DNA of 64,000 nucleotides from Actinophytocola algeriensis (lineage in GTDB: Bacteria; Actinomycetota; Actinomycetes; Mycobacteriales; Pseudonocardiaceae), in NCBI RefSeq assembly GCF_014203735.1, contig NZ_JACHJQ010000006.1:186001-250000 (forward strand). Reading direction: 5' to 3'. The translations under genes were made by a program, and so were the position numbers. Below are positions 1-52,900 of this stretch, in pieces. Within the stretch, counting starts at the first letter, position 1, and each line of letters begins with the position of its first letter. The notes beneath the pieces were generated by a model that saw only the letters and a list, made by a program, of their open reading frames with translations, ran no database searches and was not told where the DNA came from.

Positions 1-891
1 CCCCCGCACACCCGGCGCGACCCACGCCGCCTTCGCCGCGCCGTCGTGGTTGACCGCCCAGCCGCGGATGACGCCGTACACGCGGTCCCCGTCGGCGACC
101 GCGTCGGCGAGCCTGCGCAGCACCACGACCCCGAGGCCGTTGCCGGTGCCGTGCGGGGTGCCCTCGCCCGCCTCGTCGAAGGCGCGGCAGCGGCCGTCCG
201 GGGACGACGTGCCACCAGGCTCGTACCGGTAGCCGACGCGGTGCGGCACCTCGATCGCGACCCCGCCCGCGAGCGCGACGTCGCACTCGCCGGTCAGCAG
301 GCTGGTGCAGGCCACGGACACCGCGACGAGCGAGGTCGCGCAGTACGCCTGCACACCGACGCTCGGGCCGGTCAGCCCGAGCGTGTGCGACACCCGGCTG
401 GTCAGGGAGTCCTTGTCGTTGCACAGCCCGATCGCGAGCTTGCCGGCCCCGGCGACCAGTTCCTTGTGCTGGATCAGGTTGTAGATCATGTACGTGCTCA
501 TCTGGCTGCCCGCGAACACGCCGACGAGCCCCGGCGCGCGGTCCGGGTCGATCCCGGCGTCCTCCAGCGCGTGCCACGCGTTCTCGAGGAACAACCGCTG
601 CTGCGGGTCCATCAACGCGGCCTCGTGCTCCGGGTAGCCGAAGAAGCCCGCGTCGAACAGCTCGATGTCGTCGAGCACGGCCGCGGCGGGCACGTAGGAC
701 GGGTCGGCGATCAGCTCCGGGTCCTCACCGGCGGCGAGGAGTTCTTCCCGGCTGAACCAGGTGACGCATTCCTTGCCGTCACGCAGGTTCCGCCACAGCT
801 CGTCGGTGTCCCGGCTGCCGGGGAACTGCCCGGCCATGCCGACGATGGCGATGTCGGTGCCGGAGTCGGCCGGGGCGCGCTCGGTCGTCAC
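1..891 (-). CDS. PKS G: hybrid-type ketosynthase, N-terminal part only (gene runs off the left edge)
   Basis: Reads leftward from a GTG at 889-891, with AGGGGG just upstream as ribosome binding site, and has no stop before base 1. The visible 297 residues are the N-terminal part of a ketosynthase: IAIVGMAGQFPG near residue 14, then MDPQQRLFLENAWHALEDAG. The nucleophile region reads AYCATSLVAV instead of the TACSSSLVA seen in the other PKSs here, so the cysteine is kept in an altered setting. The DELWRNLRDGKE and FDAGFFGYPEHEA segments are, from family knowledge, typical of KS domains in PKS/NRPS hybrid or trans-acting lines rather than ordinary macrolide modules. There is no N-terminal coiled-coil docking helix. 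It overlaps PKS F by GTGA, so the two are probably translationally coupled and act in sequence. The catalytic histidines, the other domains and chain release lie outside the window. Confidence 0.9.
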   Translation of the reverse strand, partial: MTTERAPADSGTDIAIVGMAGQFPGSRDTDELWRNLRDGKECVTWFSREELLAAGEDPELIADPSYVPAAAVLDDIELFDAGFFGYPEHEAALMDPQQRLFLENAWHALEDAGIDPDRAPGLVGVFAGSQMSTYMIYNLIQHKELVAGAGKLAIGLCNDKDSLTSRVSHTLGLTGPSVGVQAYCATSLVAVSVACTSLLTGECDVALAGGVAIEVPHRVGYRYEPGGTSSPDGRCRAFDEAGEGTPHGTGNGLGVVVLRRLADAVADGDRVYGVIRGWAVNHDGAAKAAWVAPGVRG

Positions 892-3314
892 GCTGCCCCC
901 TTCCTGGCCTGCGCGATGGCCCGCCGCCGCGCACCCCGCGCCGCCTGTGCGTCCACCGCGGTGGGCCGCGGCGCGGCGTCCGCGGTGTTCTCGGTGCCCA
1001 CGGTGTTCTCGGTGAGCGAGTCGAGCAGCTCGGCGAACTGGGCGGGTGTCGGCCGTTCGAACAGGCTGGCCGCGGACAGCTCGACGTCGTACTCCTTCGC
1101 CAGCCGGGTCACGACGGCGAGGCCGATCATGGACGTGCCGCCCAGTTCGAAGAACGGGTCGTTGACGCCGATCGCGTCGATGCCGAGGTGCTCCTCCCAG
1201 GCCTGGGTGACCGCGCGCTCGGTCGGGGTGCCGGCGGGCAGGAACGGCGCGCGCAGGTCGGGCCGCGGGAAGCGCTCGACGTTGACGTGCTCCTCCCGCG
1301 CGAACGGCGTCGGAGTGTGGTTCGGCCAGAACCTGGTGCGCTGGAAGGGGTAGGTCGGCAGGTCGACGAACTGTCCGGCACCGGCCCAGCGCACCGGCAC
1401 ACCCAGCTCCCACAGCCGTCCGAGCGTGGCGAGCCACTCCGGCCTGCCGTCGGTGCGCAGCGCGACCTGACCGGCGCCGGGGTCGGCCGCGAGGACCACG
1501 TCCACGCGTCCGGCCAGCTCCTCGGCGGTACCGGACGCGGCGATCGGCAGCAGCCTGCCCAGCGCGGCGACCGGGTCCGCGGCGTCGAACGCGGGCTCGA
1601 CGGCCGCCAGGTCCGCCGCCCACGCGGTGTCGCCGACGACGAAACCCAGTGCCTGCTTGCCTGCCGCCGCCTGCGTGCCGGTGAACCCGGACCGCAGCCG
1701 CGCGACGGCGTCGGCGACGTCCCGGCACACCAGCGCCCGCCGCACCCGCAGCGCCGACCGTCCTTTCTGGACGGTGTGGGCCACGTCGGCGAGCGCGAGG
1801 TCCGGGGTGGACTCGAGGTGGTCGGCGAGTGCCGTGGCGAGCGCGGCCAGGCCGGCCTCGCTCCCGGCGGACAGCGTGAGCAGCTGCCATTCCTCGTCGG
1901 GGGTGACCGCCTGCTCGGTGGCAGGTGCCTGCTCGATGATCACGTGTGCGTTGGTGCCCGACCAGCCGAACGCGCTGATCCCGGCACGGCGAGGTGCGCC
2001 CGGTGCGCTGGGCAGCGGCTGGTTGCCCAGCACGGGCCGCACCGGCCCGTCGAGCGTGACGACCGGGTTGGGCGTGGTGAGGTGCAGGTTCCCCGGAACC
2101 GCACCGTGTTTGACCGCCTGGATCGCCTTGACCAGGCTCGCCAGCCCGGACGACGCGACGAGGTGCCCGATGTTGGCCTTCACCGCACCCACCAGCAGCG
2201 GGTGGTCGGCGGCCCGGTCACCGAAGACCTCGAGCAGCGCGCCGAACTCGATGGCGTCGCCGAGCGCGCTGCCGGTGCCCTGCGCTTCCAGGAAGTCGAG
2301 GTCGTCCGGCTTCAGGCCGGCGTTGGCGAGCGCGGACCGCAGCACCGCGATCTGCGCGACCTTGTTCGGCGCGGTGAGCCCGTTGCTGCGGCCGTCGGAG
2401 TTCACCGCCGACCCGCGGACCAGCGCGTGCACCCTGCGGTCACCGGCGTCCGAGGCGCGGGTCAGGATCACCGCACCGCCGCCTTCGCCCAGCGTGTAAC
2501 CGTTCCCGGCCTCGTCGAACACCTTCGCCTTGCCGTCCGGGGCGAGCATGCCCATCTTGGCGAACTGGACGAAGTAGACGGGATGGATGATCGCCGAGCT
2601 GGAGCACACGATGGCGCGGTCGATCTCGCCGCGGCGCAGGCTCTGCACCGCGAGGTCGAGCGCGACCAGCGACGACGAGCACGCCGTGTCGACGGTCATG
2701 ACCGGGCCGCGCAGGTCGAACTGGTAGGCGAGGCGCCCGGCGGCGGCACTCGCCGACCCGCCCATGGTGAGGTACGGGTCGTCGATGCTCGCCACGCCTT
2801 CGGCCTCGGCCTCCAGCTGCAGGTACTGCCGCGAGTCGACCAGGCCGAGGAACACGCCGGTCTTGCTGCCCCGCAACGACTCCGCGGGGATCCCCGCGTC
2901 CTCCAGCGCCTCCCAGACCAGCTCGAACAGCAGCCGGTGCTGCGGGTCGATGCGCAGCGCCTCCTGCGGGGAGATGCCGAAGAACGCCGCGTCCCAGCCC
3001 GCGATGTCGCGCAGGAACCCGCCGCGCTGCGTGTACGCCTTGCCGGGCGCGGTCGGGTCGGCGTCGAAGTAGTCGGCGGCACGCCACCGGTCGGCGGGCA
3101 CCTCGGCCATCGCGTCGACGCCGTCGGTGAGCGCCTGCCAGTACCGGGCCGGGGTGTCGCCCCCGCCCGGCAGCCGGCAGGACATCCCGACCACGGCCAG
3201 CGGCTCGGCGGCCGCGGCGGCGACCGCGGCCAGCCGCTCCTTGGCCTCGACCAGGTCGCCGGTAACACGCTTGAGGTACTCGACCAGCTTTTGTTCCCGG
3301 TCCTGGTCTGCCAT
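888..3314 (-). CDS. PKS F: aberrant KS-(AT remnant)-ACP module
   Basis: 808 residues from ATG at 3314, which overlaps the PKS E stop as ATGA. An earlier in-frame start exists but lies inside PKS E and lacks a ribosome binding site. The N-terminus is a docking helix (LVEYLKRVTGDLVEAKERL). The KS follows: the nucleophile is intact (DTACSSSL, Cys about 212), but the first catalytic histidine motif reads EAQGTGS instead of EAHGTGT (Gln 345); the second histidine (KANIGH) is present. After the KS-AT linker only about 100 residues remain of the AT, with no GHSxG and no HAFH, and then the usual post-AT segment [10 protein letters not shown] carrier domain follows (ELGGTSMIGL) that looks more like a hybrid PKS/NRPS carrier than the GFDSL carriers elsewhere in the cluster. 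The C-terminus is Ala/Arg-rich (RGARRRAIAQARKG). The module cannot load its own extender; it may pass the chain on unextended, use an AT in trans, or do specialised chemistry. Function is inferred only. Confidence 0.9.
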   Translation of the reverse strand: MADQDREQKLVEYLKRVTGDLVEAKERLAAVAAAAAEPLAVVGMSCRLPGGGDTPARYWQALTDGVDAMAEVPADRWRAADYFDADPTAPGKAYTQRGGFLRDIAGWDAAFFGISPQEALRIDPQHRLLFELVWEALEDAGIPAESLRGSKTGVFLGLVDSRQYLQLEAEAEGVASIDDPYLTMGGSASAAAGRLAYQFDLRGPVMTVDTACSSSLVALDLAVQSLRRGEIDRAIVCSSSAIIHPVYFVQFAKMGMLAPDGKAKVFDEAGNGYTLGEGGGAVILTRASDAGDRRVHALVRGSAVNSDGRSNGLTAPNKVAQIAVLRSALANAGLKPDDLDFLEAQGTGSALGDAIEFGALLEVFGDRAADHPLLVGAVKANIGHLVASSGLASLVKAIQAVKHGAVPGNLHLTTPNPVVTLDGPVRPVLGNQPLPSAPGAPRRAGISAFGWSGTNAHVIIEQAPATEQAVTPDEEWQLLTLSAGSEAGLAALATALADHLESTPDLALADVAHTVQKGRSALRVRRALVCRDVADAVARLRSGFTGTQAAAGKQALGFVVGDTAWAADLAAVEPAFDAADPVAALGRLLPIAASGTAEELAGRVDVVLAADPGAGQVALRTDGRPEWLATLGRLWELGVPVRWAGAGQFVDLPTYPFQRTRFWPNHTPTPFAREEHVNVERFPRPDLRAPFLPAGTPTERAVTQAWEEHLGIDAIGVNDPFFELGGTSMIGLAVVTRLAKEYDVELSAASLFERPTPAQFAELLDSLTENTVGTENTADAAPRPTAVDAQAARGARRRAIAQARKGAA

Positions 3315-6300
3315 CAGCTCGCCTTTCCGAGTTCTGAGTCGATCAGGTCGAACAGGTCGTCGGCCGACGAGGCGGTCGACAGGCGTGCCTTGAGCCCGTC
3401 GGTGCGCTGCGGCTGCAGTGCCTGCCACGCCGCGACCAGTTCCTGCAGTGCCGTGTCGACGCGGGCCCGCACATCCTCGTCCTCGACCGCCACCCCGCTG
3501 AGTGCTTCCGCGACGCGGCCCAGGTCGGCCAGCACCGGCACCGGCACGGCCACGTCGCCGGAGACCAGGTCGGTGAGGAGCTGTTCGGCCAGCGCGACCG
3601 GGGTCGGGTAGTCGAAGACCAGCGTGGGCGCCAGCTTCAGGCCGGTGATCCCGTTGACGCGGTTGCGCAGCTCGACCGCGGTGAGCGAGTCGAACCCGAT
3701 CTCCTTGAACGGCCGCTCCGGCTCGACGGTGTCCGGGTCGGCGACGCCGAGCACGGCGGCCACCTGCACGCGGACCAGGTCGAGCAGCATCCGCTCGCGC
3801 TCCGCGGCCGGCATCACGGACAGCCGCTCGACGAGCGTGGTGTCCTTGGCGATGCCGGCGGCCGCGGCACGGCGGCCGTTGCCACCCGCGAGTGCCCGGA
3901 ACAGCGGCGGCACCACACCGCCCCTGCGCAGCGCACCAGCGGCGAACGCGACACCCAGCAGGATCGCGTGGTCACCCGCCATCGCGTTGTCGAACATCGT
4001 CATGCCCTGCTCGAGCTGAATGGGCTCCATGCCGCTGCGGGCCATGCGCGCCAGGTCGGCCTCGTCGAGGTGACCGGTCATGCCGGACCGCTCGGCCCAG
4101 ACACCCCACGCCACCGAGGTGGCGGGCAGACCCTGGTCGCGGCGGTGCTGGGCCAGTGCGTCCAGGAACGAGTTCGCGGCCGCGTAGTTGGACTGGCCCG
4201 GTCCGCCGAGGATGCCCGCCGCCGAGGAGAACAGCACGAACGCGGACAGGTCCAGGTCCTTGGTGAGCTCGTGCAGGTTCCAGGCCGCGTCCACCTTCGG
4301 CTTCATGACCTTGGCGAGCGTGCCGGCGTCCTGCGACGCGAGCACGCCGTCGGACAGCACACCGGCGGTGTGGATCACCGCGGTGAGCGGGTGTGCCAGC
4401 GAACCCAGCAGCGTAGCGAGCGCGTCGCGGTCGGCGGCGTCGCAGGCCTCGATCCGGACGTCGGCACCCAGCTCGGTCAGTTCCGCGGCCAGTTCGGGAG
4501 CCCCGTCCGCCGCGAGACCGCGGCGGCTGGTGAGGACGAGGTGCTTGATGCCGTGCTCGGTGATCAGGTGCCGGGCGACCGCGGCCCCGAGGGTGCCGGT
4601 GCCGCCGGTGATCAGTGCGGTGCCGTCCGTGTCGACCTCGCGCGGCACGGTGATGACGACCTTGCCGATCTGCTTGGCCTGGCTGAAGAACTGGAACGAC
4701 TCCTGCGAGCGGCGCACGTCCCACGCGGTGAACGGCAGCGGCGTGATCTCACCCTTCGCCGCCAGCTCCGCGACCGAGGACCAGCCCGGCGCGATGACCG
4801 CGATCGGCGCGCCGAACAGCTCGAACGGCAGGTAGCTGATGTGCGGGTGGGCCTTCGCCACGTCCTCGGGGTCGCGCAGGTCGGCGATGCCCATCTCCAG
4901 GAACCGCCCGCCCGCGCGCAGCAGCCGGAACGAGGACTCGATGAACTCGCCGGTCAGCGAGTTCAGGACGATGTCGACGCCCTCGCCGTTCGTCGCGGCG
5001 CGGAAGCGGTCCTCGAACTCGGTGGTGCGGGAGTCGCCGATGTGGTCGTCGTCCAGGCCAAGGGCACGCAGGGTGTCCCACTTGCCCTTGCTGGCCGTGC
5101 CGAACACCTCGACACCGCGGGCCTGCGCCAGCTGGATCGCGGCCAGACCGACACCGCCTGCGGCGGAGTGGATCAGGAGCCGCTCGCCCGCCTTCATGTG
5201 CGCGAGGTTCAGCAGACCGTGGTAGGCGGTGGTGAACACCAGCGGGATCGACGCGCCCTCCGCGAAGCTCCAGCTCGCGGGCAGCGGCGCCAGCATCTCC
5301 TGGTCGGTCACCGTGACCGGGCCGATCGAGCCGGGGAACATGCCCATCACGCGGTCGCCCGGCTTCAGGTCCGTCACGGCCGAGCCGACCTCGAGGACGA
5401 TGCCCGCGCCTTCCTGGCCGAGACCGTTGTGCATGGGCGCGAGGCCCAGCACGTTGAACACGTCGCGGAAGTTCAGCGCGCACGTGCGGATCGACACGCG
5501 GACCTTGGTCGGCAGCAGCTCGCCGTCGAACCGGTCGTCGGCCACCAGCTCCAGGTCGGAGATGGTGCGGCCGGTGGTGTGCAGGCGCCACACGTCGGTG
5601 CCGGGTGCCTCGAGGCCGGGCGTGCGCCGGGCCAGGCGCGGCACGAGGACGTTGCCCGCGCGGACCGCCGCCTGGTCCTCGCCGGTGGCGAGCGCGGCGG
5701 CCACCGCGTCGGCGGTGGCGTCCTTGTCGCCGAGGTCGACGAGCGCGAACCGCTCCGGGTTCTCGGTCTGTGCACTGCGCAGCAGGCCCCACAGCGCCGA
5801 CGACGGCAGGTCGCGGACCTTCTCGCCGCCGTTCACCGCGACCGCGCGGCTGGTCAGCACGACCAGCTTGGACTCGGCGAACCGCTCGTCGGCGAGCCAG
5901 GCCTGCAGGTGACCGAGCACGCGCAGGCTCTCGGCGTGCACCTCGGCGGGCAGGCCGGCCGTGTCCGTCGTGGCGTGGACCGCCGCGGGCAGCAGGACCA
6001 CCTCGGGCACGTCCGTGATCGCGGCGACGTCGGCGTAGGAGGTGAGGCCGCCGAAGTCGCCGATGACCGCCCAGCCGTCGGTCGGGCCCGGCTCCTCGGT
6101 CTCCGTGGGAGCCACCCAGTCCAGCGCGAACAGCGGGTCGTCGTTGCCGCCGCTCTTGCGCAGCGCGGCCAGCTGTTCCGCGGAGATCGGCCGCAGCAGC
6201 AGCGACTCGATCTTCGCGACGGGTGCGCCGTTCTGGTCGAGCAGGTCGAGGCGGACGGTGTCCGCACCGGCCGACGACACCCGCACCCGGAGCGTCCGGG

Positions 6301-9300
6301 CGCCGGTCGCGTACAGCGACACACCGGTCCAGTGGAACGGCACGTGCCCGGCGCCGTCGAGCAGCGCGCCGGCGCCGATGGCGTGCAGCGCCGAGTCGAG
6401 CAGTGCGGGGTGCAGCCCGAAGTTCGCGGCCTCGTCCCGCTGCTTGCCGGACAGCGTCACCTCGCCGAGCACCTCGTCACCCGCGCGCCACGCGGCACGC
6501 AGGCCCTGGAACGCCGGGCCGTACTCGTAACCGGCGTCGGCGAGGTTCGGGTACAGGTCGGCCACGTCGATCTCGGTGGACCCGGGCGGCGGCCAGGACG
6601 CGAACGTCGGCACCAGCGCGGGCACCTGGTTCGACAGGGTGCCCGCCGCGTGGCGGGTCCACTCCTCGCCATCGGCGCCCTCCCCGCCGTCCGGTCGCGA
6701 GTGGACGGTCACCGAGCGCACGCCGTCGTCGTCCGGCGCGGACACGTTGACCTGCAACTGGGTCGCCTGGCCCTCGGTGAGGACCAGCGGGTTCTCGATG
6801 ATCAGCTCGTCGAGCTGCGCGGCGCCCGCGACGGTGCCCGCCTTGATCGCCAGCTCGACGAACAGCGTGCCGGGCGCGAGGGTGGCGCCCTGCACCGTGT
6901 GGTCGGCGAGCCAGGTGTGCGTCGACTGGCTGATCCGGCCGGTCAGCACGAAGCTGTCACTGTCCACAGGGGACACGACGGCGCCGAGCACCGGGTGCCG
7001 CGCGGTCTCGAGGCCCGCGGAGCGGATGTTGCCGCCGGTGCCGCTGGGGATGATCCAGTAGTGCTTGTGGTCGAACGCGTAGGTCGGCAGGTCGGCCAGC
7101 TCGGCGTCGGTGCCCGCGTACGGGGCGGTGCGGTCCACGGTCGCGCCGCGGGCCCACAGGGTGCTCGCCGCGGTCAGCACCGCGTGCGGCTCCTGGCGGT
7201 CCTTGCGCAGCGCGGCCACGAGGGCAACGGTGTCAGTGCCAATGCCGACGACATCGTCGAGGCACTCCTGCGCCATGCCGGTCAGCACACCGGACGGGCC
7301 GACCTCGACGAACGTGGTGACACCCGCGTCGGCCAGCGTGCGCACGCCGTCGCAGAACCGCACGGCGGCGCGGACGTGCTCGACCCAGTAGTCCGGGGAG
7401 GCCAGCTGCTCGGCGGTGGCGATCCCGCCGGTCACGTTGGACACCACCGGGATCGTCGGCTCGTGGTAGGCGACCCCGGCCGTGACCGTGCGGAACTCCG
7501 GCAGCATCGGGTTCATCAGCGCCGAGTGGAACGCGTGGCTGACGGTCAGGCGCTTCACGCGCCTGCCCTGCTCCTCGAAGATCCCCGCGACGGCCAGCGT
7601 GGCGGCCTCGTCGCCGGAGATGACGACCGAGGACGGGCCGTTGATCGCGGCGATCTGCACCGATCCCTCGCCGCTGTCGGGCAGGTGGGGGGTGATCTCG
7701 TCCTCGGTGGCCTGGATGGCGACCATCGCGCCTGCCGACGGCAGCGCCTGCATCAGCGCGCCGCGCGCGGCGACGACCACGCAGGCCTCCGGCAGGGTCA
7801 GCACACCGGACACGTGCGCGGCGGCCAGCTCACCGATCGAGTGCCCACACACGAAGTCCGGGGTGACACCCCACGACTCCAGCAGCCGGAACAGGGCGAC
7901 CTCGACCGCGAACAGCGCGGGCTGGGTGTAGCGGGTCTCGTCGAGCCCTTCGCCGTCGGCGATCACCTCGCGGATCGGGCGCTCCAGCAACGGGTCCAGG
8001 TGCTCGGCGACCTCGTCGAAGGCGGCCGCGAACGCCGGGAAGCGTTCGTACAGCTCGGTTCCCATGCCCGCGCGCTGCGCGCCCTGGCCGGTGAACAGGA
8101 AGGCGACCTTGCCGCTGCCGGGGTTGCCGGTGATGCCGCCGGCGCCGTCGCGCAGCGACTCCAGCCCGGACAGCAGCTCCTCGCGGGTCGTGCCGACGAC
8201 GGCCGCGCGGTGGTCGTAGGCGCCGCGGGAGCGGACGAGCGAGAGGCCGATGTCCGCGGGACGCAGCCGCTCGTCACTCGCCACGTGCGACCGCAGCTTC
8301 TCGGCCTGGTGGCGCAGCGACTCGGCGGTCTTGGCGGACAGCGTCCACGCCACCGGGCCCTCGTAGGGCGTGGCGCCTGCCTCGACGTCCTCGTGCGGCG
8401 CCTCCTCGATGATCAGGTGCGCGTTGGTGCCGCTGATGCCGAACGAGGAGACACCCGCGCGGCGCGGGGTCTCGCGGGACGGCCACGGCTGCGGGTCGGT
8501 CAGCAGCCGGACGGTGCCGGCCGACCAGTCGACCTCGGGGGTCGGCTCGTCGACGTGCAGCGTCGCGGGCAGCTCCTCGTGCTGCAGCGCGAGGACCATC
8601 TTGATCAGGCCCGCGACCCCGGCGCCCGCCTGGGCGTGGGAGATGTTGGACTTCACCGAACCGAGCCACAGCGGCCGGTCCGGCGAGTGCGACGAGCCGT
8701 AGCTCGCCATCATGGCCTGCGCCTCGATCGGGTCGCCGATGGACGTGGCGGTGCCGTGCGCCTCGACCGCGTCCACGTCACCGGGCCGCAGGCCGGCGTC
8801 GGCGAGCGCGTCGGCGATGACCCGCTGCTGCGCGGGCCCGTTCGGGGCGGTGAGGCCGTTGGACGCGCCGTCCTGGTTGACCGCGGAGCCGCGGATGACC
8901 GCGAGGATGCGGCGGCCGTTGCGCTGCGCGTCGGAGAGCCGCTCCAGCAGGACCACGCCGACGCCTTCGCCCCAGCCGGTGCCCTCGGCGCCCTTGGCGA
9001 ACGACCGGCACACGCCGTCGGGCGACAGGCCGCCCTGCTGCGAGAACTCGATGAAGCTGAACGGCTGGCCCAGCACGGTGACACCGCCCGCGAGCGCGAG
9101 CGAGCACTCCCGGTCGCGCAGCGCCTGCGTGGCGAGGTGCACGGCGGACAGCGACGACGAGCACGCCGAGTCCAGGACGATGGAGCTGCCTTCGAGACCC
9201 AGCGTGTAGGACACGCGGCCGGACAGGATGCTGCCGGTCGTGCCGGTGACGAGGAAGCCCGACAGCTGCTCGGGCATGTCGAAGTAGTCACCGATGTAGT

Positions 9301-9781
9301 CGTGGTACATGCAGCCCGCGTAGACCGAGGTCTTGCTGCCGCGCAACGCGGCCGGGTCGATGCGCGCGTTCTCGATGGCCTCCCACGAGGTCTCCAGCAG
9401 CAGGCGCTGCTGCGGGTCCATCGCGAGTGCCTCACGGGGGCTGATGCCGAAGAACTCCGGGTCGAAGTTGCCCGCGTTCTGCAGGAATCCACCCCGGTTG
9501 ACGTAGGTCTTGCCCTTCTGTCCCGGGGTCGGGTCGTAGACGCGCTCGATGTCCCAGCCGCGGTCGGTCGGGAACTCGCTCACCCCGGTGCGCTTTTCGG
9601 TGAGCAGATTCCACAGTTCACCGGGCGTGGTGACACCACCGGGCAGGCGGCACGCCATGCCGACGATGGCGATGGGTTCCCGCGCGTCACTGACCAGTCG
9701 CTGGTTCTCCTTCCGGAGACGGTCATTTTCCCTGATCGACTCACGCAGAGCTTCGACGAGCTGTTCAGCGGAAGTAGTCAT
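3314..9781 (-). CDS. PKS E: fully reducing module (KS-AT-DH-ER-KR-ACP)
   Basis: 2155 residues. The start is taken at ATG 9781 ([12 protein letters not shown]), which has GGAG six bases upstream; an ATG two codons earlier overlaps that site. Order of domains: coiled-coil docking helix (1-33), KS (about 35-460), malonyl AT (GHSIGE near 645, HAFH near 752), DH ([10 protein letters not shown] near 961; partner DSALH), ER (about 1400-1700, NADPH motif [11 protein letters not shown]), KR (TGGTGTLG near 1727, catalytic SNYAAAN near 1868, LSD in place of LDD, so probably B-type), ACP (EIGFDSL near 2032), C-terminal docking ([15 protein letters not shown]). It should add a malonyl unit and reduce the beta-carbon to methylene. 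The C-terminal docking type matches the N-terminus of PKS F, whose start codon overlaps its stop. Predicted module 8. Confidence 0.95.
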
Positions 9782-9932
9782 TTTCATCTCCAGTAGAACC
9801 GGCGGACCGCGTCTATGCTATCGAAAATCGGACATCGGGTTAACCGACGTAAATGCCGATTGCCCACTTTCGAGAAACCCCCCGGTAATTGTCCGCTTGT
9901 TCTTTTCCGGAGAAGCTCGAGATGAATTTTTC
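9782..9932 (-). promoter_or_regulatory. AT-richer intergenic region upstream of PKS E, probable promoter
   Basis: 151 bases between the PKS D stop and the PKS E start, noticeably AT-richer than its surroundings. It holds a CCGGTAAT copy (9882-9889) of a motif also found before other cluster genes, and a palindrome GGGTTAACCG at 9837-9846. The D-E junction is the only PKS gap here with room for a promoter. No clear hairpin terminator was seen. Confidence 0.45.
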
Positions 9933-15119
<5,187 letters not shown>

Positions 15120-15192: not shown

Positions 15193-18100
15193 TCACGCCA
15201 CCCCGAGGTCGTCGATGAAGGCGAACACGTCATCGGCGGAGGCAGCCTTGAGCTTGTCCTCCACCGAGGTGACGGTCCCGGTGTTCGCCTTGTCGTTCAA
15301 CGCACCCACCAGCGCCTGCAACCGGGCGACGATCCTGGTGCGTTCGATGTCGTGAGCTGGCAGCTCCGCGACGACCCGTTCCAGTGCGTCCAAACTGGAC
15401 AGAACCGGATCACCGGCTGCTTCGCCGAGCCCGAGCCGCGTGTGCAGGAAGGCGGCGAGTTCGGCCGGGCTCGGGTGGTCGAACACCATGGTGGCCGGCA
15501 GGGTCAGCCCGGTGGCGGCGGCGAGCTGGTTGCGCAGCTCGACCGCGGCGAGCGAGTCGAAACCCAGCTCGCGGAACGCCGAGTGCGGGGCGACCGCGTC
15601 GGCGGAGTCGTGCCGCAACACGACCGCGGCGCGGGCCCGCACCAGCTCGACCAGCTCCTGCTCCTGGTCGGCCGGGGACAGCTCTTCCAGCCGGGACACC
15701 AGCTCCGCGGCCCCGGCGTCCGGCTCGACGGCGTTCTCGGCGGCCAGCACGGCGACGGCGGCAGGCACTCCACGCAGCAGCGGACGGGGCCGGGCGAGCG
15801 TGTAGGTGGGTACGAACCGGGCCCAGTCGATGGCGGCGACCACCAGGTTCGGGTCACCCTCCCCGATCGCCCGCGCCAGCGCCGCGAGCGCGAGCTTCGG
15901 TTCCATGGCGTCGAGTCCGTAGCGACTGAGGTCGCCGTCGGCGGCCATCGTGTCGCCCGCCCAGGCACCCCAGGCGACGGAGGTCGCGGGCTTGCCCTGC
16001 GCCACGCGGCGCCGCGCGAGCGCGTCGACGTAGGCGTTCGCGGCGCCGTACGCGGCCTGCTGACCGCTCCCCCAGACCGCGGCACCGGAGGAGAACAGGA
16101 CGAACGCCTCCAGGTCACCGGTGAGCTCGTCGAGGTTGCGGGCGCCGTCGACCTTGGCGCGGCCGGTGGCGGTGAAGTCCTCGATCGTGGTCTCCCCGAT
16201 CGGCACGGGCACCGGCAGCGCGCTGGCCGCGTGGAACACGGCCGTCACGGGGTACACGTCGAGGAGCGCTTCCAGCGCGACCCGGTCGGCGACGTCGCAG
16301 GCGGCGATCGAGACGTTCACGCCGAGCGCGGTGAGTTCGGCGGTCAGCTCGGCCGCGCCAGGGGCGTCGGCGCCACGACGGCTGGTGAGCACGAGGTGTT
16401 CGGCGCCGTTCTCGGCGAGCCACCGGGCGAGGTGGGCACCGATGCCGCCGGTACCACCGGTGACGAGGACGGTGCCGCTTGGCTGCCACGGCGTGGCCGG
16501 TCCGGCGGGCGCGGGAACCATGCGGCGCGCGTACACCGCGCCGGCGCGCACGGCGAGCTGGTCCTCGTCCGGTGTGGACAACGCGGCGACGAGCAGGTCC
16601 GCGTCGGCGTCCGGCAGGTCGACGAGACCACCCCACCGGCCGGGCAGGTCGAGCGCGAGGACCGTGCCAAGACCCCACACCGCGGCCTGCTCGGGATCGG
16701 GTGCCTCGCCGGTCGCGTTGACGGTCACGCACCACAGCGGCGCGGTGACGTCACGTTCGCCGAGTTCCTGGACGAGCGTGACCGTGTCCGTCACGGGAAG
16801 CAGGGAGACGATGCCGGTGACGTCCCCGGTGGGGAGCGACCCGACCTCGCCCCGCACGACCTCGACGTGCTTCGCCAGCCCGGCGGCGAGCGCGTCGTCG
16901 GCGCCGACCACGAGCCAGCGGCCGTCGAGCGTCCCGGTCGGGTCGACGCGTTCCCAGTCGATCTGGTACCGCCAGGAGTCGGCGGTGGTGGCCGAGTCGG
17001 CGAGCTCGACCCAGTACCGCTGCCGGTCGAACGCGTAGGTGGGCAGGTCGACAGCCGACGCGCCGAAGGGGGCGAAGAAGGCGTCCCAGTCGACGGCGCG
17101 CCCTTCACAGTGCAGCGCGGCGAGAGCCTCGACCGCGGTCCGGTCACCGGGATGCCTGCGCCGCTGGGTGGCGAGGAAGGTACCGGTGGCGCTGTCGGCG
17201 GCCATCGCGGACAACACGGCGTCGGGCCCCAGCTCGACGAACGTGCTGACCCCCTCGGCCGCGAGGGTCGTGATCGCGTCGGCGAACCGCACGGTCTGCG
17301 CCACGTTGCGGATCCAGTACTCCGGCGTGGTCACGTCGGCGACATCGCCGGTGACGGTGGACACGACGGGAATCGCAGGCTCGGCGTAGGACACCGCGGC
17401 GGCGACACGTGCGAAGTCCGCGAGCATCGGCGTCATCAACGGCGAGTGGAACGCGTGGCTGACGGCGAGCCTGCTGGTCTTCCGGTCGGCGAACCTGGCC
17501 GCGACGGCGAGGACCTCCTCCTCGGGACCGGAAAGCACGACGGAGCCGGGCCCGTTGACCGCGGCGATGCCGACGTCACCGGTGACCGTCACCTCGTCCT
17601 CGCCCGCCTGCACGGCGACCATCGCGCCACCGGTGGGCAGCGCCTGCATGAGCCGCGCGCGGGTGGTGACGAGCAGTGCCGCGTCGGCGAGCGTCAGAAC
17701 ACCGGCGACGTGCGCGGCGGCCAGCTCCCCGATGGAGTGCCCGGTCACGTAGTCGGGCCGGACACCCCAGGACCGGAACAGCCGGTAGAGCGCGACCTCG
17801 ACCGCGAAGAGCCCGGGCTGGGTGTAGGTGGTCTGGTTGAGCAGGTCCTCGTCCTCGCCCCACAGGACGTCGCGCAGCGGGCGGTCCAGGTGCGGGTCGA
17901 GCGCGGCGAGCACCTCGTCGAAGGCCGCGCCGAACGCGGGGAAGGCAGCGGCGAGATCCCGGCCCATGCCCAGCTTCTGCGCCCCTTGCCCGGAGAACAG
18001 GAACGCGAGCTTCCCACTCGCCGGGGTGGCGGTGACGAGGTCGGTGCCGGTGACGAAGCCGCGGTGCTCGAAGTGCGTGCGCGTGGTGGCGAGCGAGAAA

Positions 18101-19608
18101 CCCACGTCGACGGCGGACAGCTCGGGATGCGCGGAGAGGTGGTCCCGCAACGCGACGGCCTGCGCGCGCAGCGCGGCAGGGGACTTGGCGGACAGCACCA
18201 ACGGCATCGCGGGCCCGTCACCGGTGGCGGCGGGCGCGGCGGCGGGAACGGCCTCGATGATCACGTGACTGTTGGTGCCGGACAGCCCGAACGACGACAC
18301 AGCGGCGCGACGCGGGCGGCCGGAGTCGGGCCACGGCTGTTCCTCGGTCAGCAACCGAACCGTGCCTGCCGACCAGTCGACCTGGGGGGTCGGCTCATCG
18401 ACGTGGAGGGTGCGCGGCAGAACCCCGTGCCGCAGCGCCTGAACCACCTTGATGATCCCGGCAACCCCGGCGGCGGCCTGCGCGTGCCCGAAGTTCGACT
18501 TGATGGACCCCAGCCACAGCGGCGACTCACGGTCACGGCCGTAGGTGGACAGCAGGGCCTGCGCCTCGATCGGATCCCCGAGGCGGGTGCCGGTCCCGTG
18601 TGCCTCGACCGCGTCGATGTCCGAAGTGGACAGACCGGCGTCGGCGAGCGCGGCCCGGATGACCCGCTCCTGGGAGGGCCCGTTGGGCGCGGTGAGCCCG
18701 TTGGACGCACCGTCCTGGTTGACGGCCGACCCGCGGACGATCGCGAGCACCCGATGCCCGTTGCGTTCCGCGTCGGACAGCCGCTCGAGCACCAGCACCC
18801 CGACACCCTCGGCCCAGGCGGTCCCGTCGGCCCCGGCGGCGAAGGACCGGCACCGCCCACCTTCGGCGAGCCCGCCCTGCCGGGAGAACTCGTTGAAGGA
18901 GCTGGGGGTGGACATCACGCTGACACCACCGGCGAGCGCCAGGGTGCAGTCCCCGCGCCGCAGTGCCTGAGCAGCGAGGTGCACGGCGACAAGCGACGAC
19001 GAGCAGGCCGTGTCGACGGTCAGAGAGGGCCCGGTGAGCCCGAGCGCGTAGGAAACCCGCCCGGAGGCGACCGCGGGCGTGGTGCCGGTGCTGATGTAGC
19101 CGCCGAGGTCCTCATCGGACATGAGGACGGGAATCCCGTAGTCCTCACCCATGAGCCCGGCGAAGACACCGGTGGTGGCACGACGAGCAGCGTCGGCGTC
19201 GATACGAGCGTGCTCCAACGCGGCCCAGGAGGTCTCGAGCAGCACCCGTTGCTGCGGGCTCATGGCGGTCGCCTCACGCGGGCTGACGCCGAAGAACCCG
19301 GCATCGAACTCCGTGGCCCGGTCGAGGAACCCACCCGACCCGGAAAGGACGGCGGACATCCCGAACGCCCGGGCGAAGACGTCCCACCCGCGATCGGCTG
19401 GCAGGGGCGAGATCCCGTCCCGCCCTGAACGCACCGCGTCCCACAAGGAGTCCGCGTCCGAGATCCCACCCGGGTACCGGCAAGCCATACCCACGATGGC
19501 GATCGGCTCGCGCGCGGCGGCGACAAGTTCCGCGTTCTCCCGCCGGAGGCCGTCGTTCTCCTTCAGCGAGGAACGCAGCGCCTCGACCAATTCGTCAGAC
19601 GTGGCCAT
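15193..19608 (-). CDS. PKS C: ketoreducing module (KS-AT-KR-ACP)
   Basis: 1471 residues. The start is set at ATG 19608 (MATSDELVEALR) with GGGGAC upstream; an earlier in-frame start would add 12 residues without a good ribosome binding site. N-terminal coiled-coil docking (VEALRSSLKENDGLRREN), KS (DTACSSSL near 200, EAHGTGT), malonyl AT (GHSIGE near 622, HAFH near 719), KR (TGGTGGIG near 1046), ACP (ELGFDSL near 1350), C-terminal docking (SADDVFAFIDDLG). There is no DH. The KR lacks the LDD motif and has Trp eight residues before the catalytic Tyr (WGSGQQAAY), the A-type signature, so an L-configured hydroxyl is predicted. This is the only A-type KR in the window and the only module that should leave an alcohol. 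The docking tail matches the N-terminus of PKS D. Predicted module 6. Confidence 0.95.
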   Translation of the reverse strand: MATSDELVEALRSSLKENDGLRRENAELVAAAREPIAIVGMACRYPGGISDADSLWDAVRSGRDGISPLPADRGWDVFARAFGMSAVLSGSGGFLDRATEFDAGFFGVSPREATAMSPQQRVLLETSWAALEHARIDADAARRATTGVFAGLMGEDYGIPVLMSDEDLGGYISTGTTPAVASGRVSYALGLTGPSLTVDTACSSSLVAVHLAAQALRRGDCTLALAGGVSVMSTPSSFNEFSRQGGLAEGGRCRSFAAGADGTAWAEGVGVLVLERLSDAERNGHRVLAIVRGSAVNQDGASNGLTAPNGPSQERVIRAALADAGLSTSDIDAVEAHGTGTRLGDPIEAQALLSTYGRDRESPLWLGSIKSNFGHAQAAAGVAGIIKVVQALRHGVLPRTLHVDEPTPQVDWSAGTVRLLTEEQPWPDSGRPRRAAVSSFGLSGTNSHVIIEAVPAAAPAATGDGPAMPLVLSAKSPAALRAQAVALRDHLSAHPELSAVDVGFSLATTRTHFEHRGFVTGTDLVTATPASGKLAFLFSGQGAQKLGMGRDLAAAFPAFGAAFDEVLAALDPHLDRPLRDVLWGEDEDLLNQTTYTQPGLFAVEVALYRLFRSWGVRPDYVTGHSIGELAAAHVAGVLTLADAALLVTTRARLMQALPTGGAMVAVQAGEDEVTVTGDVGIAAVNGPGSVVLSGPEEEVLAVAARFADRKTSRLAVSHAFHSPLMTPMLADFARVAAAVSYAEPAIPVVSTVTGDVADVTTPEYWIRNVAQTVRFADAITTLAAEGVSTFVELGPDAVLSAMAADSATGTFLATQRRRHPGDRTAVEALAALHCEGRAVDWDAFFAPFGASAVDLPTYAFDRQRYWVELADSATTADSWRYQIDWERVDPTGTLDGRWLVVGADDALAAGLAKHVEVVRGEVGSLPTGDVTGIVSLLPVTDTVTLVQELGERDVTAPLWCVTVNATGEAPDPEQAAVWGLGTVLALDLPGRWGGLVDLPDADADLLVAALSTPDEDQLAVRAGAVYARRMVPAPAGPATPWQPSGTVLVTGGTGGIGAHLARWLAENGAEHLVLTSRRGADAPGAAELTAELTALGVNVSIAACDVADRVALEALLDVYPVTAVFHAASALPVPVPIGETTIEDFTATGRAKVDGARNLDELTGDLEAFVLFSSGAAVWGSGQQAAYGAANAYVDALARRRVAQGKPATSVAWGAWAGDTMAADGDLSRYGLDAMEPKLALAALARAIGEGDPNLVVAAIDWARFVPTYTLARPRPLLRGVPAAVAVLAAENAVEPDAGAAELVSRLEELSPADQEQELVELVRARAAVVLRHDSADAVAPHSAFRELGFDSLAAVELRNQLAAATGLTLPATMVFDHPSPAELAAFLHTRLGLGEAAGDPVLSSLDALERVVAELPAHDIERTRIVARLQALVGALNDKANTGTVTSVEDKLKAASADDVFAFIDDLGVA

Positions 19609-19637
19609 ACCGTCCCCAAACGCGTCGATGTGAACTG

Positions 19638-19682
19638 CCCGCATACCTCTCGCGTCGAGACTACGGACGCGGGGTATGCGGG
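19638..19682. promoter_or_regulatory. Long dyad upstream of PKS C, operator or MMPL terminator
   Basis: The arms CCCGCATACC (19638-19647) and GGTATGCGGG (19673-19682) are perfect inverted repeats. An inner pair CGCGTC/GACGCG (19651-19656, 19666-19671) extends the stem. It lies 30 bases upstream of the PKS C start and after the MMPL stop on the same strand. The sequence GGGGTATGCG within it recurs upstream of the MFS operon at 43924-43933, which favours an operator. A CCGGTAAC motif sits beside it at 19693-19700. Confidence 0.45.
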
Positions 19683-24583: not shown

Positions 24584-39583
<15,000 letters not shown>

Positions 39584-47735: not shown

Positions 47736-48494
47736 TCATCTCGGCGACGCGGAGGAAACCGACCTGGCGTGCGTGCGGAGCTTCGCGAGAATGTCCGGCA
47801 CGACGTTGTTGAGGTAGAAGTGTCCGCCCGGGAACACCGACAGTTCGAATTCCGCTTCGGTGTGCTCGCGCCACGCCTCCACCTCCGCGACCGTCGCTTT
47901 GGGATCGTCGTCGCCGGTGAGCGCGAATATGGGGCAGCTGAGTTTCGGTCCGGCGCGGTGGGTGTACGTTTCCGCGGCCGTGTAGTCCGCGCGGATCGCG
48001 GGCATGACCATCGCCAGGACGTCCTCGTCGTCCAGCAACGCGGCCTCGGTGCCGCCGAGCTGCTTCATCGCGGCAAGCAGACCAGCGTCGTCGCGCAAAT
48101 GGGTGCGCTCCAACCGGCTGCGATGTGGCGCCGGACGGCCGGATGCGAACAGGGCGGTCGGTATGACCCCCGACTGCTCCAAACGGCGGGCAACCTCATA
48201 GCCGAGTGTCGCACCGAGACTGTGGCCGAAGATCGCGAGCGGCCGGCCGGTCAGTGGTGCGATGGCGGGCACCAGGGCGTCGGCGAGGTCGTGGATCGAG
48301 CGCAGGCACGGCTCGCGGAGCCGGTCCTGGCGGCCGGGGTACTGCACGGCCAGCACGTCGATCTCGGGGGCGAGAGCCCGTGACACGCCGAAGAAGTAGC
48401 TGGCGGACCCGCCCGCGTGCGACAGGCACAGCAGCTGGGTCTCGGCGTCGTCCGCCGGGTGGAACCGTCGCACCCACAGGTCGACCTCGGTCAT
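47736..48494 (-). CDS. Type II thioesterase (PKS editing)
   Basis: 252 residues of alpha/beta-hydrolase fold. The start is placed at ATG 48494 (MTEVDLWVRRF), with GAGGTGAG upstream; an earlier in-frame start has no such site. Nucleophile elbow FGHSLGATLG, conserved LSHAGGSASYF and VQYPGRQDR segments, and the catalytic histidine in FPGGHFYLNN all match the external thioesterases that clear stalled or mis-primed chains from PKS/NRPS carriers. This is consistent with its place in the cluster. It is downstream of the small peptide gene on the same strand, across a hairpin. Confidence 0.93.
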   Translation of the reverse strand: MTEVDLWVRRFHPADDAETQLLCLSHAGGSASYFFGVSRALAPEIDVLAVQYPGRQDRLREPCLRSIHDLADALVPAIAPLTGRPLAIFGHSLGATLGYEVARRLEQSGVIPTALFASGRPAPHRSRLERTHLRDDAGLLAAMKQLGGTEAALLDDEDVLAMVMPAIRADYTAAETYTHRAGPKLSCPIFALTGDDDPKATVAEVEAWREHTEAEFELSVFPGGHFYLNNVVPDILAKLRTHARSVSSASPR

Positions 48495-48548
48495 CTCGCT
48501 CACCTCGGGAGTTTGTTCGTGCAGGTCAGGAAGGTGCCAACAGGACAA

Positions 48549-48584
48549 TGGGCCCACCACCGGCCCGATCCGGTGATGAGCCCA
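48549..48584 (-). terminator. Hairpin between the small peptide gene and the thioesterase
   Basis: Inner stem CACCGG/CCGGTG (48558-48563, 48570-48575) around a six-base loop, with an outer TGGGC/GCCCA pair (48549-48553, 48580-48584). It starts 16 bases past the peptide stop. It could be a partial terminator that makes the peptide transcript more abundant than the thioesterase transcript. Confidence 0.55.
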
Positions 48585-48785: not shown

Positions 48786-49109
48786 GTGGAGTCTCCTCGG
48801 GGTTCGTATGCGATAGCGGGGAGCAACCGCTGGTCTCAAATCTGCGGCATCGGGGTACTCCGCGACAAGGTCCATGCTCATCATTCGCCCATGCTTTCTC
48901 ACCCGGACCAGGCATGAATCGCTCATATCGACACAGCGCAGCCGGTCGGTTACCGTGAGCGACCCGGTGGCGGGGCCCACCATGAAACGCTCATCGCATC
49001 CATTTCCGTTGTTCACACCGGAATGCGTGAGATGGCAATGTTCCTCCGGCGCGTGCCGAGTGAAAGCATTACCCGTGCCTGGGGGCGTTTCTGACTCGGA
49101 GTGAAGCCC
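48786..49109. promoter_or_regulatory. Divergent intergenic region between the small peptide gene and the SARP gene
   Basis: 324 bases with no convincing gene. Holds GGTTACCG (48948-48955) followed by TGAGCGACC, a combination also seen before PKS A. A near-identical 13-base direct repeat, ATGAATCGCTCAT (48914-48926) and ATGAAACGCTCAT (48982-48994), is 68 bases apart. These are candidate regulator sites for both genes. Confidence 0.5.
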
Positions 49110-49926: not shown

Positions 49927-49980
49927 ACCAGGGACAGCATGGGCCCTGGTACCACCGACTTTCTTTGCGAGGCCACTGAC

Positions 49981-52900
49981 ATGCCGCGTACCGAACTGCT
50001 CCGGCCCCTTCCCGAGCTGCTCTGCGAGAACGCGAGCCGGTACGGCGAACGGGTCGCGTTCGCCGACTCCCGGCGTGCGGTGACGCACGCCGACCTCGCG
50101 ACGCGCACCGCGCGGATCGCGGGTCACCTCGCGGATCTCGGCGTGTGGCCGTCGGACCGCGTCGCCGTGCTCGTCGACAACACGGACGGCGTGACCGCCG
50201 TCGAGAGCATCGTGGCCGTCAGCAGGGCGGGTGCGATCGCGGTGCCGCTCGACCCGGCGCTGGACGACGCGGAGCTGGCCCGGCTGATCACCGACAGCGG
50301 CGCCGACACGGTCATCACCACCGCGGCGCACGAACACCGGGTCACGGCACTGGACCCCGCGCCACTCAACGTGATCGTCGATGGCGGCACCGGCACGTCG
50401 TTCGAGGACCTGGCGACCACCGAACCCGGCGCGCAGCCGACCGACGACCTCGCGCTCGACGACCTGGCCTTCCTGGTCTACACGGCGGGCACGACCGGCC
50501 CCCGCAAGGGTGTCCTGTCCACGCAGCGCAACGCGCTGTGGTCGGCGGCCGCCGCGTACGCACCGGTCGTCGGGCTGTCCGAAGAGGACCGTCTGCTGTG
50601 GCCGCTGCCGGTGCACGACGGCCTCGCGCACCACCTCGCCGTGCTGGCCGCGATCGCGGTCGGCGCCACGGTGCGGTTCGCAGCGGACCCGACAGCATCA
50701 GCCCTGGCAGAAGCGGCCCTGACAGAAGTACTGGCCGAAGCACTGGCCGACAGCACCATCGTCGTGGGCACCACGGCGATCCTGCGCACCCTCCTGGACG
50801 CCGAGGCACCGGACCTGCGGGCGGGCCTCGTGGTCGGCGCGGCGAGCGACGCGGACCTGCGCACAGCGTTCGCCGCCACGTTCGCCGCGCCGCTGCTCGA
50901 CGTCTACACCACCACCGAGACCGGCCCGGTCGCGCTGACCTGGCCCCGCGGTGAGGACACCAGGGAGGCGCGCTGCCTGCCCGTGCCGGGCCTGAGCGTG
51001 CGCATCGTCGACCCGCTGACCGGCACCGACATGGGCACCGGCCAGGAAGGCGAGCTGTGGGTCAGCGGCCCGAACGTGATGGCGGGCGGCTACCACAACC
51101 TCCCCGACGCGACCGCGTCCGTGCTGCGCACCGGCTGGTACCGCACCGGTGACCTGGCCCGCCGCGACGAGTCCGGCTACCTGACGGTCACCGGCAGGCT
51201 CGCCGACGTCATCGTCGTCGGCGACGAGCGGGTGCGACCGGAGCGTGCCGAGGCCGTGCTGCGCGGGCTCGACGGCGTCACCGACGCGGCCGTGGCCGGG
51301 CGCCCGCACGACGACCTCGGTGCGACCGCGGTCGCGTACGTGGTCGGTGACCCGGACCCGACGACACTCCTGTCGCGGTGCCGTGACCAGCTGCCGCCCG
51401 CCGCGGTGCCGGTCGAGATCTTCACCGTGCCCGCGATCCCGCGCTCGGCGGCGGGTGCGGTCATCCGGCACCGGCTGCTCGACACCCCGGCCCGGCTGCT
51501 CGCGACGACCGTCACCGACGAGCTGTTCGCGCTGGACTGGGAGCCGGTCGGGAACGCGGTCGACACCGAGCCAGGCGACTGGGTCCTGGTCGGCCCCGGC
51601 GTGCTCGCGTCCGACACCGAGGCCTTCGCCGACACCTACCCGGACCTGCCCGCGCTGGCCGAGGCCGTCGCCTCGGGGCGGGCCGCCCCGGACGTCGCGT
51701 GCGTCGAGCTGGACGCCGACGGCATGCCACCCGGTGAGCCGCGGGCGTTCCTGGCCGACGAGCTGGTCGCGGTGACCCGCCTCGTGCTGCTGACCCGGGG
51801 TGCCGTGCACGCGGGCGGCTACTCCCCCGAGCCGGGGCTGGCCGCCGCGTGGGCGCACGCGCGGGAGATCCAGAAGCGCTACCCGTGCCGCATCGCGCTC
51901 GTCGACGCCGACGCCGCCACCGCACTCGTGCTGCGCGGCGCCGTGGCGTCCGGGCACGACGAGGTCGCGATCCGGTCGGAAACCCTGCTGCGGCCCCGGT
52001 TCTCGCCCGTGCCGGCGGCGACCGGCGGACCGGCGCTCGGTGGCACCGCCGTGCTGGTCGGCAAGGCGGACGAGTCACTGGCCCGGCACCTCGCCGAGGC
52101 CCACGGCACGACCGTCGTCACCGCGGAGGACGCCGCCGCGCTGGCCGCGGTCCTGGCCGACCGCAAGGACATCACGGCTGTCGTGTGCACCGACCCGGCG
52201 CCCTCGGTCGCGCAGTACGCGCACGAGCAGACCCTCGCTCTGGAGCTGTCGGCGTTCGTGCTCCTGACCACCGGCTACGACACCCCGTCGACCGCGTACG
52301 CCGACGCGCTGGCCCGCCACCGCGCGGTGCTCGGACTGCCCTCGGTGGCGATCACGTGGTCCCCCACCGGTTTCCTCACGCTCCCGGACGAGCGCCGCGC
52401 CGCCACGTTCGACCTGGCACTCGCGGCGGGCGCGCCGAGCGTGGTCGCCGCGCGCCGCAACGAGCTGGCCACCGGCTCGACCGCGATGCTGAACGCGCCC
52501 GGCGCGGAAGCGCGGCTCGCCGAGCTGGTCGAGCGTCTCACGGCACTGTCGGGTCCGGACCGCACGCGGACCGTGCTGGACCTGGTCCACACCGAGACGA
52601 TCGCGGTGCTCGACAGCCAGGCGCCTGCGATCCTGGACGCCGAGACCCCGTTCCGGCAGCTGGGTTTCGACTCCCTCGCGGCCGTGCAGCTGCGCGGCAG
52701 GCTGTGCGCCGCCACCGGCCTCGACCTGCCCGCCACCCTGATCTTCGACTACCCGACCCCCGACACGCTGGTGGAACACCTGCTGTCCGAGCTGGGTGTC
52801 GGCGCCACGGCCGAGCAGACCACCACGACCGTCACCGCCCGCTACGACGACCCGATCGCGATCGTCGGCATGGGCTGCCGCTTCCCCGGTGGCGTGACGT

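Follow-up and report, generated by a model that had tools for sequence, protein, structure and literature searches.

The locus lies in a 64,000-nucleotide stretch of DNA (the window; C6:186001-250000) of a 9.7 Mb genome assembled in 23 contigs, and comprises the polyketide synthase (PKS) genes that we refer to as PKS A to PKS G (Table 1). PKS F is encoded by a reading frame (888-3314, minus strand) that is open throughout and specifies 808 aa counted from the ATG at 3314. This ATG has one base in common with the stop codon of PKS E (TGATG), and PKS G starts, with GTG, inside the end of PKS F, the two sharing four bases (GTGA). The protein is laid out as a docking helix, a KS, a KS-AT linker, relics of the AT edges, a post-AT linker, and an ACP, and it ends in a basic tail. 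At an E-value threshold of 0.001, Pfam returned the docking domain, both KS halves, the KS C-terminal extension, the KS-AT linker models, and PP-binding, and no AT, KR, DH, or ER. Two weak thiolase-fold matches were also recorded.

Table 1. Positions of the PKS genes, the PKS F domains and catalytic residues, and the free thioesterase in the window.
Feature	Position	Strand	Details and basis
PKS G, N-terminal part (638 aa in all)	1..891	-	runs 1,026 bases beyond the window, L034:4975-6891
PKS F CDS, 808 aa	891..3314	-	ORF and Pfam; ATG at 3314, stop 888-890
PKS F C-terminal basic tail, AARGARRR...	891..959	-	like tails of the family's module-1 proteins; helix 786-807, low model confidence
PKS F ACP, residues 701-764, Ser728 in GGTSM	1023..1214	-	PF00550; 2/27 clade-invariant columns changed
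PKS F ACP Ser728 codon	1131-1133	-	
PKS F AT remnant (edges only) and post-AT linker [13 protein letters not shown], residues 546-665	1320..1679	-	alignment with 16 relatives; model confidence low
PKS F KS end and KS-AT linker domain, residues 451-545	1680..1964	-	PF22621/PF22336; folded in model
PKS F KS domain; DTACSSS, EAQGTGS, NIGH	1965..3206	-	Pfam, KS tree, model
PKS F His384 codon CAC (second catalytic His, NIGH)	2163..2165	-	alignment
PKS F Gln345 codon CAG	2280..2282	-	His in 16/16 relatives
PKS F Cys212 codon TGC (acyl-binding nucleophile)	2679..2681	-	invariant in 29-row alignment
PKS F N-terminal docking helix, residues 1-36	3207..3314	-	PF08990, residues 7-33; model helix 2-36
PKS E: KS-AT-DH-ER-KR-ACP, presumed upstream chain donor	3314..9787	-	Pfam
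PKS D: KS-AT-DH-KR-ACP	9933..15119	-	
PKS C: KS-AT-KR-ACP	15193..19644	-	
PKS B: three KS-AT-DH-KR-ACP modules	24584..39583	-	
Free thioesterase, candidate for release from the F ACP	47736..48560	-	PF00975; putative role
PKS A: AMP-binding loading part, KR-ACP, two KS-AT-DH-KR-ACP modules	49939..62766	+	

The original prediction had described a KS with an intact Cys and a Gln in place of the first catalytic His (residue 345), an AT of which only the ends are left, and an ACP of hybrid type. All of this was borne out: both KS residues were read directly from their codons, the loss of the AT core was evident from the alignment with 16 relatives and from Pfam, and the ACP is of the LGGTS ("hybrid") type, as in its relatives. 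The neighbors of residue 345 (E343, A344, G346, and T347) occupy columns that are invariant across the 29 aligned rows. An origin of Gln345 from a single base error appears unlikely because the same KS also carries the adjacent changes S311T and T313S, together with A352S, A353S, and G357S in the NIGH loop (numbered on the KS fragment). Of the 54 blocks of ten residues that cover PKS F as far as residue 540 in an AlphaFold2 model, 45 had a pLDDT of at least 85, and the KS was confident apart from short loops. The AT relic (blocks 551 to 660) scored 55 or lower, and the ACP, which is unsupported there because the input alignment consisted of PKS F and KS stretches only, was also poor.

PKS G begins with a KS bearing the motifs AYCATS, EAHGTGT, and NLGH, in which the catalytic triad (Cys, His, His) is present; a linker, AT edges, a post-AT linker, and the stop codon follow, and the AT core, KR, and ACP are all absent from the 638 residues. 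The "otherwise regular cis-AT line" of the original prediction therefore extends up to PKS E and not beyond it, as PKS G, part of which lies beyond the window and so was out of view for that prediction, is AT-deleted and lacks an ACP. The "new late-stage reaction" envisaged between PKS E and PKS G likewise overlooked that PKS G is a truncated KS without an ACP. An aldehyde dehydrogenase gene follows PKS G on the same strand. Using five proteins of a related genome, G002 (the module 2-3 PKS, the module 4 PKS, a HAD protein, an acyl-CoA dehydrogenase, and FkbH), we searched by tblastn the stretch that starts 60 kb to the left of the window and ends within PKS G. Besides PKS G itself, the search matched PKS ORFs (C6:153.8-164.8 kb) and, in an A-T-reductase protein, the carrier domain. 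It also matched an acyl-CoA dehydrogenase (28.8%) and a 3-hydroxyacyl-CoA dehydrogenase (38.7% over 222 aa); the latter may be either a leftover hydroxymalonyl gene or a generic paralogue. FkbH gave no match in this region, where nothing resembling a relocated AT core, KR, or ACP of PKS G was seen either. The window also encodes two P450s, which could in principle act on a chain bound to PKS F.

To place PKS F within a family of modules, an F-like KS search was run across 390 genomes of the taxonomic family. Besides its own, 26 genomes contained an F-like KS of at least 625 bits (52-60% identity), and the next match scored 578 bits. Sixteen relatives were examined: 13 of those 26 (including G002 and G003), two genomes just below (G227 and G011, 578 and 576 bits), and the Streptomyces cattleya plasmid pSCAT. 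The KS phylogeny, which had been suggested as a check in the original prediction, comprised 115 KS domains and was built by a quick method with SH-aLRT support and no bootstrap. It placed the PKS F KS in a 17-row clade (SH-aLRT 100) of KSs that butyrolactol-type lines carry in their "first hydroxymalonyl module", a module built KS-(AT)-KR-ACP. The PKS G KS fell in a 17-row "second module" clade (SH-aLRT 99), in which each KS is the first of the protein encoded next after the F-type module. The S. cattleya locus, one of the 16 relatives, has its KSs in the same two clades; it was tied to the published accessions by organism and domain order, and the PLSDB table shows no genes there. Its identity to PKS F was 63% over 52% of the query (tblastn). 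No homolog above 60% identity was found among the matches listed for the 390 family genomes, for 397 genomes of the order (partly overlapping the family set), or for 246 genomes of the class, of which four, the own genome included, gave an E-value under 1e-150. A search for loci related to PKS F yielded 26 stretches, none of which was confirmed. The best PDB match, 7zma (547 bits), was not taken as special kinship because two KSs add up to its score (256 and 286 bits); among the other chains, CurL ranked first with 458 bits.

Butyrolactol A provides the closest described counterpart. Its carbons C-1 to C-8 were reported from labeling to derive from hydroxymalonyl-ACP, and the S. cattleya PKSs were named as homologs of its PKSs (PMC5355916). 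Orf10-16 is given as KS/AT/DH/ER/KR/ACP-KS/KR/ACP, Orf10-17 as KS/AT/KR/ACP-KS/AT/KR/ACP, and Orf10-18 as KS/DH/KR/ACP (PMC5932044). As far as these reports describe it, the second module of Orf10-16 followed by Orf10-17 resembles PKS F and PKS G in placing an AT-less module at the same position in the line, before a module-2 protein (PMC5355916, PMC5932044). The butyrolactol module, however, is described as part of a fused protein, with a KR and using hydroxymalonyl-ACP, whereas the line studied here lacks the KR, the His, FkbH, and the later modules. PKS F thus combines the KS clade and the dead or absent AT of a first hydroxymalonyl module of butyrolactol type with the lack of a KR and of the condensation His, and no FkbH-type supply was found in its draft genome (98% complete). 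All 16 F-type relatives have EAHGSGT and a KR; PKS F alone has the Gln, and PKS F alone is without a KR. These two losses are what is specific to PKS F among the 17.

The missing AT turned out to be common in the family rather than a special event of PKS F. We aligned the stretch from the KS to the linker for PKS F and its 16 relatives. An intact AT (GYSLG, HAFHS) was found in only two of the 17, L112 and L106, which form the first branch of the clade; nine have Gly for the nucleophilic Ser and a central deletion that takes out HAFHS, and in six, including PKS F, the AT is almost entirely gone. Because 15 of the 17 (14 of the 16 relatives) are without a working AT, in a graded series, we consider the loss to be ancestral in the module family. 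The AT after the G-type KS has GYS(V/I)G with HAFHS in 16/16 relatives (GYSVG in L106); GYSxG has been reported in ATs for ACP-linked extenders, namely GYSFG in ZmaA and GYSLG in ZmaF (PMC4207774). In nine of the 16, the G homolog is short, combines a dead KS with an intact GYS(V/I)G AT, and has no ACP, and the F homolog beside it has an EAHGSGT KS. These dead KSs have Ser at the Cys position (six of the nine have a Cys one place earlier) and Thr, Gly, Ser, or Asn replacing the HGTGT His. Their anatomy suggests that they serve the AT-less F-type module as dedicated trans-ATs. The own genome is reversed with respect to these nine: the triad of the G KS is present and the G AT is gone.

The supply of an extender was examined genome-wide. 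A first search for FkbH gave no match in the own genome; a second, which again missed the own genome, found it in 5/5 relatives tested, each with a copy no more than about 21 kb from its F-type module. A free-standing AT, another check that had been suggested, was sought among the 42 AT matches of this genome: a single match has an ORF of free-standing size (310 aa; ORFs of 984-1102 aa fall outside this count), none suited to PKS F was seen, and GYSxG occurred in 0 of the 34 AT motifs read among the 42. Since there is neither an FkbH match nor a GYSxG motif among these 34, hydroxymalonyl extension by PKS F or PKS G is very unlikely, as judged on a draft that is 98% complete.

The combination of residues in the PKS F KS has a known parallel. 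The HGTGT His is reported to be required for decarboxylative condensation, and its loss to be the mark of KS0 domains (PMC4661987), which with an ACP form a non-elongating pair described throughout trans-AT PKSs (PMC5764310). Transfer of an acyl chain onto the KS0 of MmpA has been reported in vitro (PMC10952193), and MmpE is described as a docked mini-module with a KS0 and an ACP, used for epoxidation (PMC7619045). PKS F resembles such pairs of phthoxazolin and mupirocin (MmpA/MmpE): its active Cys (C212) is kept, the HGTGT His is lost (Q345), and an ACP follows without an own AT or KR. We infer that the PKS F KS would transacylate without condensing.

We then scanned 84,980 genomes for DNA encoding EAQGTG(S/T)xLGD, as one exact 33-base pattern, and obtained 42 loci; no F-type KS was among them, in a scan that may omit the own genome and those closest to it. 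Of the 35 near-full-length KSs at these loci, 26 have EAQGTGS, followed by an ACP in 19 and by an AT in two; in the other five the stretch ended with no further domain seen. Membership of PKS F in a KS0-like, AT-less EAQGTGS clade of trans-AT PKSs was considered and rejected on the 115-row tree, in which the 21 proteobacterial EAQGTG rows form one clade far from PKS F, which stays in the hydroxymalonyl-module clade. PKS F thus shares the EAQGTGS motif with the proteobacterial AT-less clade but differs from trans-AT KS0-ACP pairs in its tree position, its cis-AT docking helix, and its AT relic, and the likeness is most readily read as convergence. Decarboxylating KSQ loading modules also have a Gln in the KS active site, where it replaces the Cys; PKS F keeps the Cys, and its Gln replaces the His. 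The KSX/ACPX of polyether PKSs was considered as a further precedent for PKS F, and our literature search found no paper supporting it in that role.

Conservation was used to compare function with drift. At the 134 columns invariant in the other 16 clade members, the PKS F KS deviates 15 times, a share that no other clade member reaches; the KS of L112, which branches deep, deviates at 12 of 131 clade-invariant columns. The PKS F changes affect 9 of the 34 columns near the catalytic loops and 6 of the 100 elsewhere (Fisher p 0.0027, with the loops picked after the data had been seen), and in each of the seven other members that deviate at all, no more than one change falls near these loops. 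In the ACP, PKS F and G003 each deviate at two of 27 clade-invariant columns and the others at none or one. A module in which condensation alone was relaxed, with its carrier and docking parts kept, would look like this. An initial count of 3/117 across all 17 rows had made the PKS G KS seem as conserved as its relatives and was discarded because that set held nine dead KSs. Against the seven triad-intact relatives alone, it deviates at 17 of 198 invariant columns, and these relatives at no more than 8 of 189, which makes it the most changed of the eight live module-2 KSs. Its changes include S171A, S174A, and T342P, adjoining the Cys and NLGH. PKS G may therefore be drifting, and PKS F along with it.

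With slightly better than even confidence, we read PKS F as a non-elongating KS-ACP relay, a KS0-ACP pair that is the reduced first hydroxymalonyl module of a butyrolactol-type line. Support comes from the tree placement of both KSs, from the erosion of the AT, and from the losses of the KR, the His, FkbH, the AT, KR, and ACP of PKS G, and the later modules; the recurrence of EAQGTGS in AT-less KS-ACP pairs, the overlapping genes, and the kept ACP are counted on the same side. PKS E would dock to PKS F, Cys212 would take the finished acyl chain, Gln345 would block decarboxylative condensation, and the chain would move unextended to Ser728 of the ACP, to be released from there or passed to the lone KS of PKS G. 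The transfer function that the original prediction had proposed between PKS E and PKS G is thus best supported as non-elongating, and the relay is best read as left over from the dismantling of a hydroxymalonyl tail whose later modules, next to PKS G, are also missing. Against it stand the share of changed invariant columns, the highest in their respective sets for both KSs, and the lack of an ACP in PKS G as acceptor after PKS F. That PKS F instead still elongates, with Gln345 in place and its ACP loaded in trans, would agree with the AT series, from which AT-less modules of this family must be loaded by another protein's AT; with the His and FkbH missing, the G AT deleted, no GYSxG motif in the 34 of 42 read, and a single AT in an ORF of free-standing size, we consider this highly improbable.

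The same observations bear on two further readings. PKS F and PKS G could be vestigial, the decaying end of a hydroxymalonyl section that was taken apart, in which case the free thioesterase would release the product from PKS E. The loss of the AT, KR, His, later modules, and FkbH fits such decay, as does the position of each KS as the most changed of its set. The comparison of PKS G with live KSs (17/198) shifted the odds toward decay, at the expense of both the relay and any joint action of the two proteins, and it is this count that makes a vestige a serious rival, doubtful as we find it. Both frames are nevertheless open and the genes overlap, the ACP Ser, the KS Cys, and the terminal tails are kept, and the concentration of PKS F changes at the catalytic loops is not what plain drift would produce. 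Alternatively, the two proteins might act as a joint terminal unit in which the PKS G KS works in trans on the PKS F ACP to condense, cyclize, or release the chain while the PKS F KS only docks or relays. PKS G does keep its Cys, His, and His, the PKS F tail resembles those preceding G homologs, and 9/16 relatives present the mirror image, a KS-dead, AT-live G protein without an ACP beside an EAHGSGT F homolog. An exchange of roles, in which PKS F supplies the sole ACP along with a relay KS, and PKS G a free KS with its triad, strikes us as improbable all the same, and the joint unit as a whole as quite unlikely, given that the PKS G KS is the most changed of the eight, also beside its Cys and NLGH, and that no AT is known to load the PKS F ACP. 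By sequence, a SalC-like cyclase was a weak candidate for PKS G, which is far from this stand-alone KS (308 bits versus 521 for 4wky). Conservation by itself does not separate a relay from a vestige, and we lean toward the relay.

KS0-ACP pairs are already known in trans-AT PKSs; we did not find the derivation of one from a hydroxymalonyl module described. In a literature search by title or start of abstract, with subscription papers mostly outside its scope, nothing appeared on such a derivation or on KS-dead AT proteins of the G type. The family shows the successive retirement of a module: the AT Ser is lost, the AT is deleted, and the neighbor becomes a dedicated trans-AT, as we read it, before the extender supply, the KR, and the condensation His are lost. 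These data suggest that cis-AT lines of actinobacteria can give rise to KS0-ACP pairs, which are usually a feature of trans-AT PKSs. Counting modules in this line would overpredict the product, and the locus illustrates how assembly lines are dismantled and, perhaps, re-used.

The PKS genes are flanked on both sides by SARP-like regulators, one on each side, and the two regulators share 67% identity over 259 aa. Because such similar regulators bracket the PKS genes, the cluster is suggested to extend at least 5 kb beyond the left edge of the window. The three L033 genes to the left of PKS G, the downstream neighbor of the AT-less PKS F, are possible candidates for release or for the supply of a side unit. 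Approximately 21 kb to the left of the window, two large ORFs, adjoined by a 101-aa ORF, look like a separate PKS. Within the window, the KS of PKS E, the upstream neighbor of PKS F, has the longest end branch (0.49) of the window's KSs in the KS tree.

Features of the window and of the stretches to its left on the same contig (L032, L033, and L034; C6, contig coordinates)
Feature	Location	Remarks
PKS E	window 3314-9787	Unusual KS motifs: SACSS, HGTAT, NISH (in place of NxGH)
SARP-like regulator	window 49101-49901	
SARP-like regulator	L034:408-1181	
A-T-reductase protein, 3-hydroxyacyl-CoA dehydrogenase, FabH-like synthase	L033:8268-13812	Encoded on the same strand, to the left of PKS G
Large ORFs of 1678 aa and 2205 aa	L032:7541-18752 (C6:153541-164752)	KS and AT of another kind

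In the same KS tree, 21 proteobacterial EAQGTGS KSs from the pattern-scan loci (L113-L154) form one clade, with hosts including Dyella, Luteibacter, Massilia, and Pseudoduganella. Most of these KSs are followed by an ACP, with no AT nearby.

In two relatives (G002, locus L067; G003, locus L070), the AT is also dead (GDGVG) or missing in the module preceding the PKS F homolog, and the final PKS protein (1204 or 1213 aa) is a KS-KR-ACP module without an AT; each line therefore has three modules without a working AT. At nine relatives' loci (L100, L101, L102, L103, L105, L107, L108, L110, and L111), short PKS G homologs have a dead KS. They lack an ACP, carry a live-looking AT (GYSVG), and adjoin an AT-less hydroxymalonyl-type module. 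These KS-dead proteins look like dedicated trans-ATs within cis-AT lines.
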